In this document: piece by piece, positions 17,111 to 49,127 of the stretch
Layout of the letters: each line of letters opens with the position of its first letter
Position numbering within the stretch: the stretch's first letter is position 1
Assembly (NCBI GenBank): GCA_027314165.1
Contig: DAHVCH010000001.1
Span: 1-64,000, forward strand
Direction: 5' to 3'
Length of the DNA stretch: 64,000 nucleotides
From: Thermoplasmata archaeon
GTDB lineage: Archaea; Thermoplasmatota; Thermoplasmata; Lutacidiplasmatales; UBA184
Position numbers and translations under genes: made by a program
The notes under the pieces: model-generated
The model's database searches: none
The model's input: only the letters and a program-made list of their open reading frames with translations
What the model was told of the DNA's origin: nothing

Positions 17111-17210
17111 GTTCGGTCCGGCGGACGGGCACCACGACGGGACGATATAGACGTGGGTGGTCGGTGCGTTCGCCGAAGACTTAACGTCCGCCTCCCGCTG
17201 CCTCTTGACC

Positions 17211-20200
17211 ATGCCCCCTCTTGAGCTCAGGGGACCGTGGGGCCTGTGCGGAGGAGGAACGCTTCGGGCGCGACCGGGGCCTCTCCGGGTCCGCCCGGTC
17301 CTCGCGAGCTCCGCGGTCCTCCTGGTCCTCTCTCTGATCCTCTCCATGTCCGCCGGAGCGGGCTCCCTGGGGATCGCCCGGGACACGGGGTCCGGCGCGG
17401 GGGGCGCAACCTCGGCGGCCTCGGTCACCCCTCCGTCCTCGGCTCCGGCCTCCCCCCTCCCGTCGGGGTCCGGTACTCAGCCCCCCTTCCCGCCGACCTC
17501 GGGCCCGAGCGCCCCTGACGCCGCCTCTGGGCCCTCGTGCCCCTCCGCCCAGGTGGTGCTGAACGGGACGACGAGCGACACTCTCCTGGCCGCCGGGGGA
17601 ACCGGGTCCTGGGCGGCGAGCTACCCTGTCGGGCAGGCGGGCATGTGGCTCACAGGGTTCCAGGCGACCGCGTCCGCCGCCTTCGACAACGGGGCTCTCA
17701 CCGCGGGAAGCGCGAGCGCCTCGGTCGAGCTCGAGCTCACCGCCGCACCGTACGCCTCCTGGGGTGGCCCGGGGACGTCCCTGCTCACGCCTCCCGCCGG
17801 CGAGGTCATCGCAAGCTGGCCGCTTTTCGTCGGTGGCGGGAGCGATGCGTCGGTGCGGTCGGGCGCTCCCACCTGCCTCTCAGTGGCCGTCCCGGCGGCC
17901 GACCCTTACCTGACCATCTTCGTGACCGCCTCGACCCCGACGCTCCCCGACCTCGTCGTCAGCTCCGCGATGGCGGTCGACCTTGTGGCCCCCGGTGCGG
18001 CGACGGACTGCGTCACCGGAGAGGGGGTCCAGCCTGGGGGGGAGAGCGACGTTTCCTCCGGCGCTCCTGGACCGGTGGCCTGGAGCTCGAGCGATCCTTC
18101 GGCGCTGACCGGAGAGACGGTGACCGGGTTCGAGGTGAGCCTGACCTCCGCCTACAACGGGAGCGCGCTCGCTCCCATCGCGGCCTACGCGACCGCCACG
18201 GCATACCTCCTCTTGACCTCCACCGCGGGCGCACCCTGGAACGGGCCCGGGGCCGCCAGCCCCTCTTTCCCCGCGGGGTCGCTCGTGCTCGGGGTGTACC
18301 AGGTCGCGGTCCCCTCCACGCTCGGGAGCGGGAGCGTGGCGCTCTCCGTGGACTGCCTGGATGTGGTGATACCGTCCGCGACCCCCTACCTGTCGCTCTA
18401 CCTGGTCGCGAACACCAGCACCGCCGCCCCTCTCGAGATCGACCTCCAATCGACGACGTACCTGACCGCGTCGGGGATCCTGGGCTCGGGATGCGAAGCC
18501 GGTGGGATGCCCCAGGCGGGGGGAGAGAGCGACACCGTGGGGGCAGCCTCGGGAGGCACCGGCTGGTGGGCCGCGAGCGACTCGACCGACCTCTCCGGTG
18601 ACTACCTCAACGGCTTCCAGGTCGGCCTGACGGAGAACTTCGCCGCCGCCCCTGACTCCGCCCCCAGGTTCGGGAACACCCTGGTCTGGCTCTTCCTGAG
18701 CCCGGTCCAGTACACCCCTTGGGGGTCCGGCGGGCAGTCGCTGCCCTCCTTCCCCGTGGGCGCTGTGGTCGTCGGGGCCTGGGTCCTGGGCGTGGGGTCG
18801 CAGGGCGACCACGCGGAGGCGGGGGTGTTCGTGAGCTGTCTCAGCGTGCTGGTCCCGAACGGATCGCCCTACCTCAGCCTGCTCATCCACAGCCGCGGGG
18901 CCGCAGGGCTCACCGTCCACACGCAGTCCGTGACCTACGCCACGGTGACGACGCACTCGACCGGGTGCGACGTGCAGCGGAACGCGACGGCCGAGGTCTC
19001 GCAGTCGGTCGCGGTGGCGGCTGCGGCGATCCCGAGCTGGTACGCCGCGAGCGCGCCCGGAACCTTCGGGGGGGACCGGGTGGCCGGGGCCTCGCTCGGG
19101 CTCTCGGTCGCGGCGGACCCTGGGGTCCTCTCCCTTCCGGAGAACTCTTCGGCCACGGCGTGGCTCCTCGCAACCTCCAGCTTCTTCGCGGGGAACAACG
19201 CCTCCGGCACCTCGGTGGCCGCGCTCCCTCCCGGGACGGTGTTCGCGGCCATCCCGCTCGCCAACGGGGCCGGATACGGGGCCTCGGAAACCTCCGTCTC
19301 CCTCTCGTGCCTCGACGCGGTGCTCTCGCCGTCCGACCCCTTCCTTACCGTCGTATTGGAGGTCTCGACGGGACCCACCGCGGGCCTCTCCGTCGGGGTC
19401 GAGTCCCAGGTGTGGGCCGAAGCTCCAAGCCTCACGTCCTCCTGCCCCGCCCCCTCCTCCTTCTCCGGAGCCTCCGTGCAGGCCGGAGGGCAGCAGGACG
19501 CCCTTCCCTCCGCGGGCACCGGCTGGTGGGTGTCCAGCGACCCTCTGAGCTTGGCTGGGCAGGTGGTGACCTCCCTGCAGCTCTCGGGGGCATTGACCTT
19601 CGGGACGGCCACGTCCACCCCTGCCTTCGGGGAGGCCACCTTCTCCCTGTTCTTCTCTCCCGGTCCTTTCACGCCCTGGAGCACGAACGGCCAGGCGCTC
19701 GGGGCCTACCCCCACGAGGTCTCTCCGTTCGGCTCGTGGACGCTCCGTGTCGGCTCGGCCAATTCGAGCGCCGGCCTCGCCGAGGCTTGGTCCTGCCTGG
19801 TCGTCCCGGTGCCTGCGGCTGCTCCCTACCTCTCGTTGCTCGTCGAACTGAGCGCTCCGGTCTCCTCCGGTCTTGAGGGCGGGTGGCAGGTCGCTGTCGG
19901 GTCGGCTCACCCGCAGTCCCTGGGCTCCGTGGTGAGGGCGTTCCCCGCCCAGGGCGATGCGTCGGTCACCTCCTTCTTCCTCACCGCGGCCCCCACCGGG
20001 GGCTTCCCTCCCTACTCCGCGGTGTGGACGCTAGGGGACGGTGCGACGCTCCCGGGTCGATCGATCAACTACACCTACGCGCTGCCGGGGGTCTACACGG
20101 TCCAGGAATGGACCAACGACTCCCTCGGGAACTCCTCGCTGCGGACCCTGACGCTCTCCGTGAGCCCCGTCCCCGCGGGCGCCGCGACGGTCACCCCCTC

Positions 20201-21554
20201 GGGTCCGCAGGACGTCGGGCAGACCCTGTCCTTCTCCTCCGAGGTCCAGGGCGGCGCCCCGCCGATCGCCTTCCTGTGGAAGTTCGGGGACGGCAGCGGG
20301 TCGATCTTCCAGAACACGACGCACGCCTATCGGACGCCGGGCAACTACTCCGTCAGCTACTTCGCGAACGACTCGGCGGGGCAGAGCTTCGTCTCGGTGC
20401 TGCCGGTCGAGATCTTCCCGGACCCCAAGGCCTCTCCGGCGGTCCTCCCCTCGGTCACCGAGGTCGGTCAGCCGGTCGCTTTCACCGCCAACGGCTCCGG
20501 AGGGGTCCCTCCTCTCAGCTGGTCCTGGAGGTTCGGGGACGGCGGTTCCTCCAACGTCGCCGACCCGGTCCACACCTACACGTCCCCGGGCGCCTTCGTC
20601 GCGACGCTCTTCCTGAACGACTCCGCCGGCCTGTCCACGAACCGAAGCGTCACGGTCACCGTCGACGCGCCGCTCACGGACGTGCTGGCCTTCTCCTCGA
20701 ACCTGACCCGGGCCTCCTCGGCGCAAGGGGTGCTCGTCTCCTCCAGCCCGTCCGGTGGGAGCGGGACCTACCGGTTCTCCTGGACGCTCAACGGGACCGA
20801 TCAGGCCACGACGACCCCGAGCTTCCGGTTCGCCCCGGTGGGCGCAGGGAACTTCTCCTTCGTGTCGGTGGTCACGGACAGCGCGGGGTTCTCCGCGAGC
20901 GATCAGGGGACCCTCACGCTGAGGCCTCCCCTCCGTGTCGGGCTCGTGGTCGACCCGAGCAGCGTGGTCCTCGGCGGAAGCTTCCGCGTGACCGCATCCG
21001 TCTACGCCCCGGATGGACCGGTCGCCTTCCTCTGGAGCTACCTCCCCTCCCCCTGCTCGGCGCAGAACATCTCGACCTTCTCCTGCACGCCCTCCTCGAC
21101 GGGCGATTATGCGATCAAGGTCACCGTCACCGATTCGCAGGGGTACCAGACCACGGCGACGGTGGGGGTGAGCGTGGCGCCTGCCCCGGCCGCCGCTCCC
21201 TCTCTCCTGTCCTCCACACCGTTCCTCGAGCTCGTGGGGGGACTGGTGGTGGTCGCGGTCATCGTCGCGATGGCCGTCGGGCGCGTTCGTCGTCGAGGGC
21301 AGCGCTCCACGCCCGTCGACGACTCCGCTTCGGTTCCCGTTTCCGATTCTGCTCCCGCCCCCGCCGCCGAGAGCGCGCAGCCACCGGTGCCGCAGGTCGC
21401 GAGCGAGCCGGGGCCGCCGAGGGCCCTTCCGGGCCCCCCGCCCTCCACGGCCCCCGGCGCGGGCGCGGGCGCGAGTGCGGGCGCGAGTGCGGCCGCGGGT
21501 GGAAGCGCGGAGGCAAGGCCATCGCTCCCGCGGACCGGCTCCGGTCCGGGCTGA
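17211..21554 (+). CDS. Secreted/surface multidomain protein: five Cys-containing ~158-aa repeats, PKD domains, C-terminal TM anchor
   Basis: ATG at 17211, signal/TM segment VLASSAVLLVLSLILSMSAGAG, repeat modules starting with Cys at 17538, 18009, 18492, 18966 and 19443, PKD motifs (LWKFGDGSG, SWRFGDGGSS), C-terminal TM LVGGLVVVAVIVAMAVGRVRRRG. Confidence 0.9.
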   Translation: MPPLELRGPWGLCGGGTLRARPGPLRVRPVLASSAVLLVLSLILSMSAGAGSLGIARDTGSGAGGATSAASVTPPSSAPASPLPSGSGTQPPFPPTSGPSAPDAASGPSCPSAQVVLNGTTSDTLLAAGGTGSWAASYPVGQAGMWLTGFQATASAAFDNGALTAGSASASVELELTAAPYASWGGPGTSLLTPPAGEVIASWPLFVGGGSDASVRSGAPTCLSVAVPAADPYLTIFVTASTPTLPDLVVSSAMAVDLVAPGAATDCVTGEGVQPGGESDVSSGAPGPVAWSSSDPSALTGETVTGFEVSLTSAYNGSALAPIAAYATATAYLLLTSTAGAPWNGPGAASPSFPAGSLVLGVYQVAVPSTLGSGSVALSVDCLDVVIPSATPYLSLYLVANTSTAAPLEIDLQSTTYLTASGILGSGCEAGGMPQAGGESDTVGAASGGTGWWAASDSTDLSGDYLNGFQVGLTENFAAAPDSAPRFGNTLVWLFLSPVQYTPWGSGGQSLPSFPVGAVVVGAWVLGVGSQGDHAEAGVFVSCLSVLVPNGSPYLSLLIHSRGAAGLTVHTQSVTYATVTTHSTGCDVQRNATAEVSQSVAVAAAAIPSWYAASAPGTFGGDRVAGASLGLSVAADPGVLSLPENSSATAWLLATSSFFAGNNASGTSVAALPPGTVFAAIPLANGAGYGASETSVSLSCLDAVLSPSDPFLTVVLEVSTGPTAGLSVGVESQVWAEAPSLTSSCPAPSSFSGASVQAGGQQDALPSAGTGWWVSSDPLSLAGQVVTSLQLSGALTFGTATSTPAFGEATFSLFFSPGPFTPWSTNGQALGAYPHEVSPFGSWTLRVGSANSSAGLAEAWSCLVVPVPAAAPYLSLLVELSAPVSSGLEGGWQVAVGSAHPQSLGSVVRAFPAQGDASVTSFFLTAAPTGGFPPYSAVWTLGDGATLPGRSINYTYALPGVYTVQEWTNDSLGNSSLRTLTLSVSPVPAGAATVTPSGPQDVGQTLSFSSEVQGGAPPIAFLWKFGDGSGSIFQNTTHAYRTPGNYSVSYFANDSAGQSFVSVLPVEIFPDPKASPAVLPSVTEVGQPVAFTANGSGGVPPLSWSWRFGDGGSSNVADPVHTYTSPGAFVATLFLNDSAGLSTNRSVTVTVDAPLTDVLAFSSNLTRASSAQGVLVSSSPSGGSGTYRFSWTLNGTDQATTTPSFRFAPVGAGNFSFVSVVTDSAGFSASDQGTLTLRPPLRVGLVVDPSSVVLGGSFRVTASVYAPDGPVAFLWSYLPSPCSAQNISTFSCTPSSTGDYAIKVTVTDSQGYQTTATVGVSVAPAPAAAPSLLSSTPFLELVGGLVVVAVIVAMAVGRVRRRGQRSTPVDDSASVPVSDSAPAPAAESAQPPVPQVASEPGPPRALPGPPPSTAPGAGAGASAGASAAAGGSAEARPSLPRTGSGPG

Positions 21555-23493: not shown

Positions 23494-26400
23494 GTGGCTC
23501 CCCTCCGCTCCAGGTCCGACCGCCTCACCTCCACGCCCGACGCCCTTCCTCCCGATCTCGAGGCCGTGGCCAAGAAGGCCCAGGCCGATCTTGCCGACGG
23601 CAGGTTCCCGGAGGTCGCCTCGGCCCTCAAGGACTGGGAGGCCGGGTTGGCGAAGGCCGAGGCGGGGAAGACGGAGGCGACCCGGGAGCGGGTCCGTGCG
23701 GTGGTCACGTGGGCGGGCGAGGAGTCCCGCCTGGAGGCGATCGAGAAGGAGCTCTCCCCGTGCTTCGACGCGCTGCTGAGCGGCGACGCGAAGGGCGCCG
23801 CCAGCTGCTTCGAGAAGAACCTCGCCACGGCCCTTCCCCAGGGAACGAAGAAGCTCCAGCAGAAGGTGGAGGAGGTCCAGGGCCTGGTCAAGCTCTCCAA
23901 GGAGCTCGAGATCGACGCCGGGTCGCTCACCAAGGCGCTCGAGGGGGTCCAGGACGCGAGCCCGCTCAGCTACGACCGCGTTGCGGGGTCGATCGATGAG
24001 GCCAAGGCCGGCACCGAGAAGGAGATCCGATCGAAGTCGCTGGAGCGGGCGAAGGACCTGCGGGACTTCTCCGAGACGCTGAAGGAGGAGGGCGCCGAGT
24101 TCTCCGAAGGCTCCGCGGCGCTCGAGGAGGTCGTCAGCCAGATCCCGTCGGCGGCCCTGGAGGACCTCAAGGGCTTGGTGGCCCGCGCCACCGAGGCCGT
24201 CGAGGGCCCCGCCATGAGCGTCGTGGCCGCCTACATCGACGAGGTCCGGCCCCGTCTCGTCGAGGCCCGGCAGCTCGGCCGCAACGCGGTCCCCGCGATC
24301 GAGGAGGTCAACAAGGCCCGCGAGGCCTACCGGAAGAAGGACTTCCGCCAGGCCGTCCAGCGGTCGCAGAAGGCGCTCGAGATCGTGAGCGACCTCGTCG
24401 CGGACATGGAGGCCGGGCACGAGGAGATCAGCGAGTTCAAGCACCTCCTGACGAGGCTCGCCACGGGCGGCCTCGCCGCGCCGGCGTACGACGAGTACGT
24501 GCAGAAGGCGGAGGAGGCGCTCCGGAAGAACGAGCTCGACAAGATGCGGACGGAGCTCCAGGAGGGGCTGCGCGTGGTCGGCCGCGAGAGCCTTCCCTAC
24601 TTCCGCTCCCAGTTGGAGCAGGCGCGCCGCGTCCTCGCCCAGATCGAGGAACGGGGCTGGTCGTCCGCCGAGCTCCCCGGGAAGCTCAAGTCCGTGCGCC
24701 AGAACTTCCAGGAGGGCCGGTTCGCCGAGACCGCCGAGGCCCTCTCGAACTTCAAGGCCACGTTGCGCGCCTCCGTCGCGCCCCACCTGACCCACCGCCT
24801 CGAGGAGCTGGGGAAGGCCGTCGAGGAGATCCCGGACGCGGACTCGGTCTCCGGGGTCCGCCGCCTGATGGCGGAGACCGACATCGCGCTCAAGGTCAAG
24901 GTCGACGTCGAGCTCGCGCTCGAGAAGCTCGCCCAGACCGAGAAGGAGCTCGCCGTCACCTTCGCGGCCCGCGCCTCCAGCCTCGTCGACGAGCTCGACG
25001 AGGAGGTGCGCGGCCTCGGCACCATGGGGATCGAGACGGGCACCCTCCAGCGGGAGATCCAGCAGATCCACCAGATCTTCGACATGGGGGACTTCGTCAA
25101 GGCCTCCCGGGCGAGCCGCGAGCTCAAGGCCCGCATGCTGCAGCAGCAGCTGCTCCGGGCCGAGGGCGAGGTCTCGAAGGCCAAGTTCTCCTTGGTCGAG
25201 CTCTCCAAGATGGGACTCGAGCCCGCCCAGCTCAAGCAGGGGCTCGTGGACGCCACCGAGCGCGTGCGTTCCGGGCGGTATCCCGGGGCCTACCAGCGGG
25301 CCGCCAACGTGCTGACGGAGGCGGAGAAGCTCAAGGTCACGGCCCAGAAGGTCCGCGAGGAGATCGGCTCGCTCGCGGAGATCGTCTCGGGGCTGAGGAA
25401 GGGCGGGGTCGGGCAGGAGGAGCTCCAGCCGGTCCTCCCCCGCGCCAAGCAGGCCTCCGAGGCCTACCAGGCGATGGACTTCGAGCGGTCGCTCGAGCTC
25501 GTCGCCGACCTGAAGGTCACCCTCCAATCGCTCGCGCAGCGCCGGGAGGCGCTACGTTCGATCTCGGAGCTGGGACAGCTCCTTACGAGCAGCCGCCAGG
25601 TGCTCCCCTCGGACCCCTCGTGGGAGAAGGAGCTCAAGGAGGCCGAGGGGAAGCTCAGCTCCGGCGACGCGGCAGCGGCGGTGGGGATGCTCAAGGACCT
25701 CCGGCCCCGCATCGTCGACGGGGTGCGCGGCGGGCTCGACGGGCAACTGAAGACGCTCGAGGCGGACCTGCGTTCCGCCCGCTCCGCGGGGCTCGACACC
25801 TCGCAGGTGGAGGGACCTCTCGCCGAGGCGCGCCGGAAGCTCGCGGAGCCGGTCCCGATGGGCGTGGCCGAGCTCATCGACCGCGCACGACGGGACTTCT
25901 TCCAGGGCCGGGCCTTCCTGGAGCAGGCCCAGAAGTCGCTCGCGCTCGCGCGGGAGGCCGTGAACCAAGGCGAGCTCGTGCGCGCCGACGTGAGCGACCT
26001 CAAGCCCCGCCTGGCGGAGATGGAGAGCCGGTTCACCGCCGGCGAGCTCTCCGTCGCCCTCGAACTGGCCCAACGCCTCCACCGGGAGGCCGAGGACCGC
26101 GTGCGCTCGCAGGTGACGCGCAACCTCGCCTCCTTCCAGGCGATGATCAACCGGGCGAAGATGGAGGGGGCGATCACCGCCGTCGCCGAGAACCTCCTGG
26201 TCCAGGCGCGCAACCTGCTCGTCGCAGGGAAGCCCCTGGAAGCGCTCCGGCTGGCGACCCGCAGCGAGACCGAGCTCGAACGCGTCGAGCTCCAACACTC
26301 GCTCGCCACGAACGCCCTCATCACGCTCAAGGCGAAGCTCGACGACGCCAAGGACCAGGGCGTGCGGGCCCCGGACGCCGAACGCGAGGTCGCCCGTGCG

Positions 26401-27699
26401 GAGGACCTGATGGCGCGCGGAGACTACGCGAGCGTCCTAGAGCGCTCCATGGAGGGGGGCGACCTGCTCCTGCGCGCCTCCGACCAGTTGCGCCGGTCGA
26501 AGGACGCGGTGGAGACCTCCCAGAAGCTCCTCACCTCCCTCACCGGGGTCGACGCGGACCTCTCCGTCGCCCGCGAGGACCTGGAGCACGCCCGGGAGCT
26601 GCTGAAGGAGGGGAAGTACGGGGAGGCCCAGACCCTCGCCCGGACCGCGGGCGAGACGGGGCGCGGGGTCGTCGAGACCTTGACGACCCAGCGCATGTCG
26701 ACGGTCCGGACCTTGCTCTCCGCCGCGAAGGCCATCGACGCGGAGGCCGCCAGCGCCTACCCCGCGCTCCTCACGCGGGCGGAGGAGGCGCTCAAGGCCC
26801 GCGATTGGAAGGGGACGCTCGACCGGCTATCCGAGGCGAAGGAGACCCTGGAGGCGGGCATCTCGAAGATCCTCACCGGCGAGGAGGAGAAGCTGGCCGT
26901 ACTCTGGAAGGCCGTGCCTCCGGTCGACGAGTCGGACACCGAGGCGCGGGCGAAGGTGACCGCTTCGCTGAAGGAGGCCCGCGAGAAGGCCGATTACGCG
27001 ACCTTCCGCGAGACCCTGGACCGCGCGACGAAGGAGGCGCAGGGGCTGCGGAGAAAGCACCTGGAGCGGGAGGTCTCGGAGATGGAGTCGCGCGTGCTTC
27101 TGGGGGAGCGGCTGGGCGTCGACATGACCCCGGTCATGGAGACCTTCAGCGAGGTGAAGATGAACCTGAAGAGCGGCCCGCTGGACACGATGATGGCCCA
27201 GCTCGCGAAATGCGAGGAGTCGCTCTCCAAGCTGCTCGTGACGCGTCTCACCGACCGGACCACGGAGCTGGCGGGCGAGGCGGCCTTCGCCCGCGACGGG
27301 CTCAGCATGGAAGTGGGCCCGGTCGAGCAGATGCTCCGCGTCGTGGAGACCCTCCAGGGCTCCGGCGACGTGGTGGGGGCCGCCCGCAAGCTCGTCGAGG
27401 CCGAGGGGGAGCTCGCGAAGAGGAAGGAGCTGCACTGGCAGCTCACCAACACCCAGTACATGATCGACCAGAAGCTCGCGACGCTCACCGACCGTAAGGT
27501 GGACGTCGGGGGCATCCGGGACCTCCTTGGCGAGGCCCTGAAGGCGAGGCAGACCGACTACACCAAGGCCCTCGAGATCTCCCAGCGGGCGCTGGACGAG
27601 CTACGCCGCCTTCTGAACGAGGGAACGCCCGCGACCGTGGCGGGGGACACGGAGAACCACGCCGCCGCCTCGGCCTCCCCGGACAACGGCCGGACCTAG
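23494..27699 (+). CDS. Giant alpha-helical/coiled-coil repeat protein (true 5' end probably upstream, near 23185-23221)
   Basis: 1401-aa ORF from GTG 23494. The same frame is open and coding-like back to 23185 but has no ATG/GTG/TTG. Recurrent motif A..L..G.Y..A...L every ~70-110 aa. Confidence 0.85.
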   Translation: MAPLRSRSDRLTSTPDALPPDLEAVAKKAQADLADGRFPEVASALKDWEAGLAKAEAGKTEATRERVRAVVTWAGEESRLEAIEKELSPCFDALLSGDAKGAASCFEKNLATALPQGTKKLQQKVEEVQGLVKLSKELEIDAGSLTKALEGVQDASPLSYDRVAGSIDEAKAGTEKEIRSKSLERAKDLRDFSETLKEEGAEFSEGSAALEEVVSQIPSAALEDLKGLVARATEAVEGPAMSVVAAYIDEVRPRLVEARQLGRNAVPAIEEVNKAREAYRKKDFRQAVQRSQKALEIVSDLVADMEAGHEEISEFKHLLTRLATGGLAAPAYDEYVQKAEEALRKNELDKMRTELQEGLRVVGRESLPYFRSQLEQARRVLAQIEERGWSSAELPGKLKSVRQNFQEGRFAETAEALSNFKATLRASVAPHLTHRLEELGKAVEEIPDADSVSGVRRLMAETDIALKVKVDVELALEKLAQTEKELAVTFAARASSLVDELDEEVRGLGTMGIETGTLQREIQQIHQIFDMGDFVKASRASRELKARMLQQQLLRAEGEVSKAKFSLVELSKMGLEPAQLKQGLVDATERVRSGRYPGAYQRAANVLTEAEKLKVTAQKVREEIGSLAEIVSGLRKGGVGQEELQPVLPRAKQASEAYQAMDFERSLELVADLKVTLQSLAQRREALRSISELGQLLTSSRQVLPSDPSWEKELKEAEGKLSSGDAAAAVGMLKDLRPRIVDGVRGGLDGQLKTLEADLRSARSAGLDTSQVEGPLAEARRKLAEPVPMGVAELIDRARRDFFQGRAFLEQAQKSLALAREAVNQGELVRADVSDLKPRLAEMESRFTAGELSVALELAQRLHREAEDRVRSQVTRNLASFQAMINRAKMEGAITAVAENLLVQARNLLVAGKPLEALRLATRSETELERVELQHSLATNALITLKAKLDDAKDQGVRAPDAEREVARAEDLMARGDYASVLERSMEGGDLLLRASDQLRRSKDAVETSQKLLTSLTGVDADLSVAREDLEHARELLKEGKYGEAQTLARTAGETGRGVVETLTTQRMSTVRTLLSAAKAIDAEAASAYPALLTRAEEALKARDWKGTLDRLSEAKETLEAGISKILTGEEEKLAVLWKAVPPVDESDTEARAKVTASLKEAREKADYATFRETLDRATKEAQGLRRKHLEREVSEMESRVLLGERLGVDMTPVMETFSEVKMNLKSGPLDTMMAQLAKCEESLSKLLVTRLTDRTTELAGEAAFARDGLSMEVGPVEQMLRVVETLQGSGDVVGAARKLVEAEGELAKRKELHWQLTNTQYMIDQKLATLTDRKVDVGGIRDLLGEALKARQTDYTKALEISQRALDELRRLLNEGTPATVAGDTENHAAASASPDNGRT

Positions 27700-45420: not shown

Positions 45421-45536
45421 CTTCGGCTCCGTCGTCCACCTCTGCGCCCCGCTCCCAGATGCATCTTTCGCTGGAGCCGGTCCATGCCGCCTCTGGCCCT
45501 ACGCGAGGCCCGGGCCGGGCCGCGCTGGAGGCGCGC

Positions 45537-45731
45537 TCAGCCCTTCACGGGGGTCGTGCAGCAGGTGCAGTGGGCCCGCATGCAGTCCCCTCTCCAGGAG
45601 TGGTTGCACTCCCTGCAGGAGCAGTAGGAGACGTAGCTGGACTTGGCCGCCACGTGCTGGGCGTGGTACATCTCCTTCAGCATCGCGTAGTACTGCACGT
45701 CGCGGAAGTTGTCGGGTCCTTCACCGGGCAT
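45537..45731 (-). CDS. Small Cys-rich protein (64 aa)
   Basis: MPGEGPDNFRDVQYYAMLKEMYHAQHVAAKSSYVSYCSCRECNHSWRGDCMRAHCTCCTTPVKG; seven clustered Cys. Confidence 0.55.
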   Translation of the reverse strand: MPGEGPDNFRDVQYYAMLKEMYHAQHVAAKSSYVSYCSCRECNHSWRGDCMRAHCTCCTTPVKG

Positions 45732-45926
45732 GGCCGCGCCCCTCGACGAGCCCAGGGGCTTTTCTCAGTTTCGCAAGGCGCGGGCGCTCCTGCATGGGCT
45801 TCGGAGACCCTCCGTTCTAGAGTGCGGGCCCCGCCCCACGGGAGGCACCGGGGGGGTCTCGCCGCTCCCACCCCTCCCGCCGGGAAGCCGGCAGAAGGTT
45901 CTTCCGAAGCTGGAACGTTTGAGACA

Positions 45927-48900
45927 TTGGTGATCGACGGGTCGAGGAGGAGGGGCGAACCTCGCACCTGGTCAAGGGTCTCGCGGGGTCCCGTTAGGTT
46001 GTCCTCTCGGCGAGCCGTCCTCCCTCTCCTGGCCACCGTCCTGCTCACCCTGGTCGTCTGGGTTCTCTTGGTCCCGTCGAGCGCGTCGCTCCCGCCTCCC
46101 TCCTCGCCGCTCTCGCCGACCTCGCCGCTCTCGCCGACCTCGCCGCTCTCGCCGACCTCGCCGACCTCGCCGTCCCTCCCCGGCCGGGACGCGAGCGTGG
46201 CGTCGGTGCACCTCGTCCTCGCAATCCCGAGCTCCTCCGCCTCGATCACCGCCTCGCCCAACCCGGCGGCACCCGGTCAGACCGTCTCGTTCACCGTATC
46301 CTACTCCTCGTCGATCGGGGGGTGCTCCTCCACCCAGCCCGACTGGTGCACCTGGGGCCTGGACTACGGCGACGGGAGCACCCCGGGCTACATCCCCTGC
46401 GAGGGGTCGACCGACACCGAGACCTTCACCCACGTCTACTCCACGGGCGGGAGCTTCACGGTGGGTGGAGGGGCCAGCAGCTACGTCAACGAGTATTCGG
46501 ACAGCGCCTGCACGAGCATCCTGGGGTCGACCCCTCCGACACCGATCACCGAGACCGTCCTGTCCCCGCTGACCGCGGGTGCGATCACCCCGGGCTCTCC
46601 CACCCTCGACGCCGGCCAGTCCGTCACGCTGACGTCGAACCCCTCCTCCGGCACTCCTCCCTACTCGATCCAGTGGTACTCCTCCGCCAGTTGCGGCACC
46701 GCGATCACGGGCGCCACCTCGAGCACCTACGTCGCCTCCCCGACCGCGACGACCGTCTACACCTACCAGGTCACGGACAGCGCTTCGAACATCGCCTGCT
46801 CGTCCAGCGACACGGTCACGGTCAACCCGATGCCTTCCGCCACGGCGTCGGCCACGCCCGCCCCCACCGACGTCGGGGTGCCGGTCGCGTTCACGGGCTC
46901 CGTCAGCGGGGGCACCGCCCCCGTCACCTACCTGTGGCACTTCGGCGACGGGAGCCCCAGTTCCACCACTCAGAACCCCACCCACAGCTACGCCACGCTC
47001 GGCACCTACGTCGCGCGGCTGTGGACCAACGACTCCGTCGGCGGGAGCAGCACCGTGAGCCTCACGATCGGGGTGAACCCGGTGCCCACCCTTACCGCGT
47101 CGGTGACCCCCTCGACGGGGGACGCCCTCTCGCCCGTCGCCTTCCACGCGCTCGTCTCCGGCGGGAGCACCCCCGTCTCCGTCGCGTGGATCTTCGGTGA
47201 CGGCATCCACGCCACGGGCGCGTTCACGAACCACACGTACAACGCTCGCGGCAACTACACGGTCCACGCGTGGGCGAACGACTCGGCCGGCCAGACGGCC
47301 ACCGCCACGACCACGGTCGTCGTCCACGCCGCCCTCACGACCCCCACGCTCTCGGCGTCCCCTTCCCCGACCGATGCGGGGACCCCGGCGACGTTCGCGG
47401 CCGCCTTCTGGGGAGGGACGCCCGCCTACACCACGACCTGGAAGTTCGCCGACGGTCTATCCGGGACCGGCACGAACCTCCAGCACACCTTCGGGACCGC
47501 GGGGACCTTCACGGTGAGATGCTGGGTGAACGACAGCGGCGGGGGCTCCAGGAACGCCACCTTGAGGGTCGTTGTCGACCCGGCGCTCGTCCTGGTCTCC
47601 TTCACCGGGGCTTTCGCTCCGACGGCCCCGCACACCCTGGACCTCGGGCAGTCGCTGGCGATGACGGTGGTCACGGGCGGGGGAGGGACCCCGCTCAACT
47701 ACAGCTACACCGGCGTTCCACCGGGTTGTCTCTCGGCTTACCGTCCCACGATCGTCTGCCTCCCCACGACGACCGGGAACTACTCGGTCGCCGTCCGTGT
47801 CACCGATCCCGTCGGAGGGACCGTCTCCGCGACCCTCTCCGTGACCATCGATCCCGCCCTCGTCCTCTCGAGCTTCACGCCCCCCTTCGCGCAGGTCTCC
47901 CTGGGCGCCACGGTCACGCTCGTCGCCTCGGCCCACGGGGGGACGAACCCGCTCTCCTACCTCTACACCGGCCTGCCCAGCCCCTGCGTCTCCAGCTCCT
48001 CCCCCTCGATCGGTTGCGCGCCGACGAAGGTCGGCACCTTCACCGTCGAGGTCGAGGTCTCCGACCCCACGGGAGGCGCGCGCTTCGCGAACCTGAGCTT
48101 GGTCGTCAACCCCGACCCGGTCATCACGCTGGTCTCGGCCTCCCCGCAGAACTCCACGCAGGGGACAGCGGTGGACTTCCGGGCCGTCGTCACCGGGGGC
48201 ACGAACCCGATTGCGTTCAACTGGAGCGGCCTCCCCCCCGGCTGTAGCCCCCAGCAGTTCACGAGCAGCTCGGACACGTGCTCGCCGAACTCCCCGGGGA
48301 CCTACTGGGTCCACGCCACGGTGACGGACGCCGACCACCGGCAGGCGAACGCCTCCGTCGAGATCCGGGTCACGCCCACGCCCGGGGTCTTCACGTCGTA
48401 CGTCGGCTGGCTCCTGGTCGGGATCCTTGCGGTGGTCGCCGTGGTCGTGGTCCTGCTCGTGCTCCGCCATCGCAGGCACCGCACGCCCCAGGCGCTCACT
48501 CCGGAGGAGGAGCACATGCTCGCGATGGGCGCCCTCTCCTCGCCAGGAATGGTCGCGGGGGCGCCCCCTCCGTCCGACCTGCAGCCCCACCCCGGGGAGT
48601 ACGCCCCGTCCCCCGAGGGCTACGTCTATCCGGACGAGGGTCCGGCCGCCCCGTCCGGCCCGCCCCCGCAAGACGAGGGCTACCCTCCCACGCCGCCCCC
48701 ACCGGAGACGGCAGAGGGGGCTCAGTTCGGGACCCCTGCACCCGAGGTCGAAGGTCCGGCGCCGGTGGACACGCTCGCCCCCGGTCCCCCGCCCGGATGG
48801 GCCCCCGCCCCGGAGGAGACGTATGCCGCTCCCCTTCCCCCGCCCCCTCCGCCAAGGATGGACCCCGAAGCGACCCCTTGGTCGGTGCCCCCGGCTCCCC

Positions 48901-49127
48901 CTCCTCCGCCGGCCGAGGACGCGCACTCCCCACCGGCCCCGCCCCCGCCCATGCTCTCCGCTCCATCCACGCTCCCACCTCCGCCCCCACCGCCGCCGGA
49001 CCCCGCACAGGTCCCCACGCAGGGGCACCGCAACGCGGGCCCCGCGGGCCAGGGCGCCTGCTTTGTGTGCGGCCGCCCGATCGGGGCGGACGGCCACTGC
49101 TCGTTCTGCGGCTACTCCCGCGGTTGA
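45927..49127 (+). CDS. Large surface protein with PKD/Ig-like domains, TM anchor and cytoplasmic Pro-rich tail ending in a zinc ribbon
   Basis: TTG 45927/GTG 45930 start candidates; TM LLATVLLTLVVWVLLV; PKD motifs (LWHFGDGSPSS, AWIFGDGIHATG); TM WLLVGILAVVAVVVVLLVL; C-terminal CFVCGRPIGADGHCSFCGYSRG. Confidence 0.85.
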   Translation: MVIDGSRRRGEPRTWSRVSRGPVRLSSRRAVLPLLATVLLTLVVWVLLVPSSASLPPPSSPLSPTSPLSPTSPLSPTSPTSPSLPGRDASVASVHLVLAIPSSSASITASPNPAAPGQTVSFTVSYSSSIGGCSSTQPDWCTWGLDYGDGSTPGYIPCEGSTDTETFTHVYSTGGSFTVGGGASSYVNEYSDSACTSILGSTPPTPITETVLSPLTAGAITPGSPTLDAGQSVTLTSNPSSGTPPYSIQWYSSASCGTAITGATSSTYVASPTATTVYTYQVTDSASNIACSSSDTVTVNPMPSATASATPAPTDVGVPVAFTGSVSGGTAPVTYLWHFGDGSPSSTTQNPTHSYATLGTYVARLWTNDSVGGSSTVSLTIGVNPVPTLTASVTPSTGDALSPVAFHALVSGGSTPVSVAWIFGDGIHATGAFTNHTYNARGNYTVHAWANDSAGQTATATTTVVVHAALTTPTLSASPSPTDAGTPATFAAAFWGGTPAYTTTWKFADGLSGTGTNLQHTFGTAGTFTVRCWVNDSGGGSRNATLRVVVDPALVLVSFTGAFAPTAPHTLDLGQSLAMTVVTGGGGTPLNYSYTGVPPGCLSAYRPTIVCLPTTTGNYSVAVRVTDPVGGTVSATLSVTIDPALVLSSFTPPFAQVSLGATVTLVASAHGGTNPLSYLYTGLPSPCVSSSSPSIGCAPTKVGTFTVEVEVSDPTGGARFANLSLVVNPDPVITLVSASPQNSTQGTAVDFRAVVTGGTNPIAFNWSGLPPGCSPQQFTSSSDTCSPNSPGTYWVHATVTDADHRQANASVEIRVTPTPGVFTSYVGWLLVGILAVVAVVVVLLVLRHRRHRTPQALTPEEEHMLAMGALSSPGMVAGAPPPSDLQPHPGEYAPSPEGYVYPDEGPAAPSGPPPQDEGYPPTPPPPETAEGAQFGTPAPEVEGPAPVDTLAPGPPPGWAPAPEETYAAPLPPPPPPRMDPEATPWSVPPAPPPPPAEDAHSPPAPPPPMLSAPSTLPPPPPPPPDPAQVPTQGHRNAGPAGQGACFVCGRPIGADGHCSFCGYSRG
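46103..46172 (+). repeat. In-frame minisatellite, ~18-nt unit
   Basis: Tandem CTCTCGCCGACCTCGCCG copies encoding SPLSPTSPLSPTSPLSPTSPTSP just after the signal segment. Confidence 0.85.

Follow-up and report, generated by a model that had tools for sequence, protein, structure and literature searches.

Gene and protein architecture

The window, i.e. the whole stretch of 64,000 nucleotides that was analysed, carries a long gene for a surface protein, the features of which are as follows.

17157..21554, + strand: whole frame of the surface protein, 1465 open codons, with orthologues in three other species and under purifying selection
17283..17376, + strand: hydrophobic segment near the N-terminus, probably a signal peptide or signal anchor (residues 43–74, Kyte–Doolittle windows >1.6)
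17377..17537, + strand: Ser/Thr/Pro-rich linker by composition, fast evolving, of low identity between species
17538..18008, + strand: β-sandwich module 1 (Cys 17538, Cys 17874)
18009..18491, + strand: β-sandwich module 2 (Cys 18009, Cys 18354)
18492..18965, + strand: β-sandwich module 3 (Cys 18492, Cys 18837), the one modelled with AlphaFold2
18966..19442, + strand: β-sandwich module 4 (Cys 18966, Cys 19308), more divergent than the other four
19443..19919, + strand: β-sandwich module 5 (Cys 19443, Cys 19794)
19971..21180, + strand: PKD stalk of about five PKD/Ig-like domains, from Pfam matches; common to many paralogues
21201..21290, + strand: C-terminal transmembrane helix (hydropathy, residues 1349–1378), kept in the orthologues
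21291..21551, + strand: Ser/Ala/Pro-rich tail after the positive stretch RVRRRGQR, i.e. with positive residues 3′ of the helix; presumably cytoplasmic

The GTG at 17157 is merely the first possible start codon of the frame. As it overlaps the divergently transcribed frame of a cobalamin adenosyltransferase, the ATG at 17211 is the most likely start. Hydropathy analysis (Kyte–Doolittle) gave two main peaks, at residues 43–74 and 1349–1378, and the topology predicted from the sequence is that of a protein with a leader directing export and a C-terminal membrane anchor. The PKD part is matched by PF18911 (E 1.5e-34, 118 bits against a curated cut-off of 27), by PF00801 (E 8e-27, 93.5 bits against a curated cut-off of 23.5) and by PF22352 (E 1e-6). 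The PKD domains and the transmembrane anchor thus follow the modules, as stated in the preliminary description. The sequence contains 21 N-glycosylation sequons. A further Cys pair (21054/21084) lies in the membrane-proximal, last PKD/Ig-like domain and is kept in all four species. An antisense ORF at 17880-19910 on the minus strand was dismissed as a by-product of the high G+C content.

Genomic neighbourhood and distribution

On one side the gene is flanked by genes for aIF2-alpha, an ArsR-like regulator, a protein resembling mevalonate kinase in sequence, a YGR210/YchF-like GTPase and the cobalamin adenosyltransferase, on the other by those for an RHH protein and aIF5A. This order of neighbours is identical across the genus. 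In two sister genera the gap between the adenosyltransferase and aIF5A genes measures only about 1.0 and 0.7 kb, which is too small to hold the surface-protein gene; it is therefore absent there. In two other sister genera the same interval is filled by an anticodon-binding/DUF835 protein. At this place, then, the gene is genus-specific, having been either gained there or lost in the others. The protein that takes up the interval in the latter two sister genera (L045:1046-5173, + strand; L046:2321-7636, − strand) is large, comprises an anticodon-binding domain, an HHH and a C-terminal DUF835, and looks like a fusion of a tRNA-synthetase-like protein with DUF835. Just after aIF5A, the window encodes a highly charged protein of 1401 aa (23494-27699, + strand) that is 71–98% identical across the genus and has no Pfam match.

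A profile built from the 20 modules of four species found only this genus among 400 genomes of the class, apart from short weak fragments, and the result was the same in 103 genomes of the family and 390 of the phylum; the three samples overlap. The weak matches outside the genus (per-genome E 8e-4 to 0.5) are short, several of them contain stops, and they were judged to be chance because hundreds of genomes had been searched. No modules were found in viral contigs, phages or plasmids, and an origin of the modules from a plasmid or phage was rejected for lack of matches in phages or plasmids.

Sequence relationships of the modules

The five leading Cys codons are in frame and exactly at the positions that had been described, each opening a module of 157, 161, 158, 159 and about 156–159 aa (modules 1 to 5). 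The second Cys that had been claimed for every module was likewise found, 112–117 residues after the first and within a (S/D/T)CLxxxxxxxxP(Y/F)L(S/T) segment. The recurring W..S..L.G..GF pattern held for four modules: W-A-x-S...L-x-G...GF is present in modules 1, 2, 3 and 5 and weaker in module 4. The latter also deviates by SAP, by PFLT, and by an Asn in place of the loop Trp, a replacement seen in all four species.

Pairwise blastp comparisons among the modules ranged from E 3e-26 (modules 3 and 5, best) to 0.003 (modules 4 and 5, worst), and module pairs scored z = 5–28 relative to residue-shuffled modules. When both Cys and the CLxxxxxxxxPYLS segment were masked, nine of the ten pairs still reached z = 7–25, while the pair of modules 4 and 5 fell to 2.3. 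The modules can therefore be aligned beyond the Cys/PYL motif, and the five tandem units proposed earlier are repeats of one another over more than that motif.

Three further species of the genus have orthologues (JAKAAX01, JAGWLG01 and DAHUZP01; 96, 55 and 46% identity). All four species have five modules and keep all ten Cys. When the 20 modules were placed in a tree, those of the same position clustered together, one cluster for each of modules 1 to 5 with all species in it; the array of five copies therefore predates the species split, and no copy has since been lost or homogenised. In every module dN is well below dS, which identifies a real, maintained gene under purifying selection. Between the more distant species the leader and linker are 30–34% identical, compared with 41–65% for the modules.

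Besides the Cys pair, the most constant features of the 20 modules are aromatic positions, near-invariant at 26, 74, 77 and 127, and the loop 71–91 with G81 and P88. The 20 modules share no invariant acid or base residue; Asp, Glu, Gln and His all vary. Charged residues make up 6.8% of the modules, which contain no Lys, compared with 24–32% in neighbouring cytosolic proteins.

The conserved Cys are consistent with one disulfide within each module (Cys1–Cys116), as the preliminary description had suggested. The leading Cys of module 1 has no module before it, and the second Cys of module 5 has no Cys of a following module. Pairing within the module is favoured because it would use all ten Cys, whereas with pairing between neighbours two would remain unpaired in each species.

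Predicted fold and relation to known structures

No family was found for any of the 20 modules in Pfam at E ≤ 1, and this includes the profiles of CBM families. NCBIfam and PHROGs gave nothing of note, and PDB sequences gave no match, in line with the initial impression that the module is no recognised named domain. The β-sandwich suggested at that stage is coherent in the predicted structure: AlphaFold2, run for module 3 on the 20-row alignment, returned a model with a pLDDT of 83.7, a pTM of 0.79 and eight β strands (6–15, 23–29, 38–50, 61–70, 92–101, 107–120, 127–136 and 140–151). A model of two modules was weaker (73.5 and 0.60) and has the same strand pattern in both halves; its low-confidence linker, 155–165, holds the module-initial Cys just before strand 1.

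Searching the PDB with the single-module model, Foldseek gave 24 matches with E ≤ 1e-3, which are almost exclusively jelly-roll virus capsid proteins and have TM-scores of about 0.25–0.55 and an rmsd of 6–8 Å or more. BFVD provided the same picture, with TM up to 0.62. The two-module model matched proteins with two jelly rolls or sandwiches, namely the SIDT1 ectodomain, a CBM22 pair, PNGase, PRD1 P3 and SGBP-B. The listed matches are generally known as jelly-roll proteins. As the TM-scores are modest, “jelly roll” is to be read as a fold class and not as a definite topology; the model points weakly to this class and not to homology. Neither Foldseek nor the family searches identified a homologue of known function for the module. 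The module is thus a new sequence family of β-sandwich domain in a familiar kind of PKD surface protein.

Since the best matches by E-value are mostly capsid proteins of small viruses, the modules might descend from viral single-jelly-roll capsid domains, i.e. from a captured virus gene. The single-jelly-roll capsid proteins of STNV, nanoviruses and geminiviruses do share the β-sandwich (Foldseek E 5e-5 to 1e-3), but the module has neither a sequence match to them nor a viral context. Viral contigs, phages and PHROGs contain no sequence match, core genes surround the gene in all four species, and the TM-scores are modest. Moreover, jelly rolls also occur widely outside viruses, and CBM22, SIDT1 and PNGase are among the matches of the tandem model. 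A viral origin is accordingly very improbable and was rejected for want of a sequence match and of viral context.

Among other structures, the best single-module E-value (2.8e-5) was obtained for Bd1399, of DUF4360 type (8okh; PMC10792529), a secreted, disulfide-locked β-sandwich and in this respect like the module as predicted. The TM-score is only 0.33, however, there is no sequence match, and Bd1399 has two disulfides at other positions. The CBM22 pair 4xup and the B. thetaiotaomicron SGBP-B 7kwb are likewise tandem β-sandwiches and are weakly matched by the two-module model, albeit without sequence similarity and with a TM-score of about 0.2 over two domains. Archaeal cell-surface proteins with PKD domains (PF18911/PF00801) share the leader, the PKD tandem and the C-terminal transmembrane anchor, and differ in that the N-terminal half here consists of five modules named in no library. 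For Methanosarcina, surface proteins are described with RIVW, LGxL, LVIVD and LGFP repeats of 42–54 aa and with DNRLRE and PEGA domains of 200 and 70 aa (PMC2447325). These resemble the present modules in being modular extracellular units first recognised by sequence alone; going by those descriptions, the module is set apart by its length of about 158 aa, its invariant Cys pair and the lack of a Pfam match.

PKD paralogues and the proposed function of the modules

PKD-stalk proteins are expanded across the genus. In this genome, at least 150 PKD_4 matches were found, spread over about 60 open frames as counted from the match table. Across the four genomes of the genus there are about 140–150 or more PKD matches each at E ≤ 1e-8, and other sampled genomes of the same order have 2–57. 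A literature search on Thermoplasmatota with PKD domains found no paper. The PKD part of the surface protein matches 17 of the paralogues examined at 28–41% identity; the modules match none of them. Some of the paralogues carry N-terminal heads, among them Kelch propellers, pro-kumamolisin activation domains (kumamolisin-type peptidase) and GH25, several have heads that likewise belong to no family, and in one a PQQ propeller follows the PKD part on its C-terminal side. The preliminary description had regarded the modules as a stalk. This is less well supported: the shared stalk is the PKD part, and the modules occupy the position of the Kelch, peptidase and GH25 domains of some paralogues, so that “head” is the better term for five modules on a common stalk.

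We regard the protein, with about an even chance of being right, as a membrane-anchored surface protein with a five-module, multivalent binding head on a PKD stalk. The stalk would hold the head outward from the membrane, and the head would be formed by five tandem, eight-stranded, jelly-roll-like modules, each probably locked by its disulfide. Such a head would most likely serve as a multivalent binding device in adhesion or ligand capture, the ligands perhaps being glycans. The best candidate for a contact site is the conserved, aromatic loop that joins strands 4 and 5 (Y74, W77, G81 and P88). By analogy with Lutacidiplasmatales of the same phylum (PMC9287336), the genus may be acidophilic; the low charge of the modules and their lack of Lys fit an acid-exposed surface, and the head probably works at low pH.

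The conserved aromatics may also be core and not surface residues, and arrays of β-sandwich domains can be mere spacers. The main rival reading, tenable if not probable, is that the modules form a passive structural array, i.e. a rigid, acid-stable spacer or S-layer-like coat that thickens the envelope or lifts the N-terminus and has no specific ligand. The modules are tandem β-sandwiches with only a low-complexity linker N-terminal to them, they have no invariant polar site in common, and their low charge together with the 21 sequons would suit a coat glycoprotein. Conversely, the PKD part already provides a stalk, paralogues have recognisable functional domains at the same place, and the identities of the modules have been kept since before the species split at an unchanged copy number.

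An enzymatic head, in which the modules would be divergent hydrolases such as a glycosidase or an acid peptidase of the G1/A4 β-sandwich type, appears improbable. In favour of an enzyme are the peptidase-type and GH25 heads of paralogues and the frequent occurrence of acid peptidases in the order Lutacidiplasmatales (PMC9287336); on the other hand, the 20 modules share no invariant Asp, Glu, Gln or His, and none of them has a Pfam match. The near-invariance of aromatics in modules that lack an invariant acid or base favours binding or structure over catalysis. An A4/G1 peptidase origin was rejected, as hhalign found nothing when the modules were compared with the genome's own Peptidase_A4 (PF01828) and no Gln or Glu is invariant.

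The binding-head reading can be extended, in a speculative and on the whole unlikely form, to the genus as a whole. A new jelly-roll-type binding family would then have arisen in one archaeal genus together with a great increase in PKD-stalk proteins whose heads are exchangeable, and this archaeon would thereby have surface tools (binding heads, peptidases and a GH25-type muramidase) with which to attach to other cells or scavenge them. The genus lends itself well to studying how one stalk, common to many proteins, comes to bear different heads, and the module, as an unnamed and well-bounded β-sandwich family, is suited to expression and structure determination one module at a time.

Two PKD proteins deserve separate mention. 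The window encodes a second PKD protein of 1222 aa (45459-49127, + strand), whose PKD part is 33% identical to that of the surface protein and whose N-terminal head of about 370 aa has no Pfam match. Another archaeal protein (L095:769-3765, + strand) carries a GH25 (lysozyme-type) domain N-terminal to its PKD stalk (Pfam E 2.8e-25), a domain type that is suggestive of action on bacterial walls.
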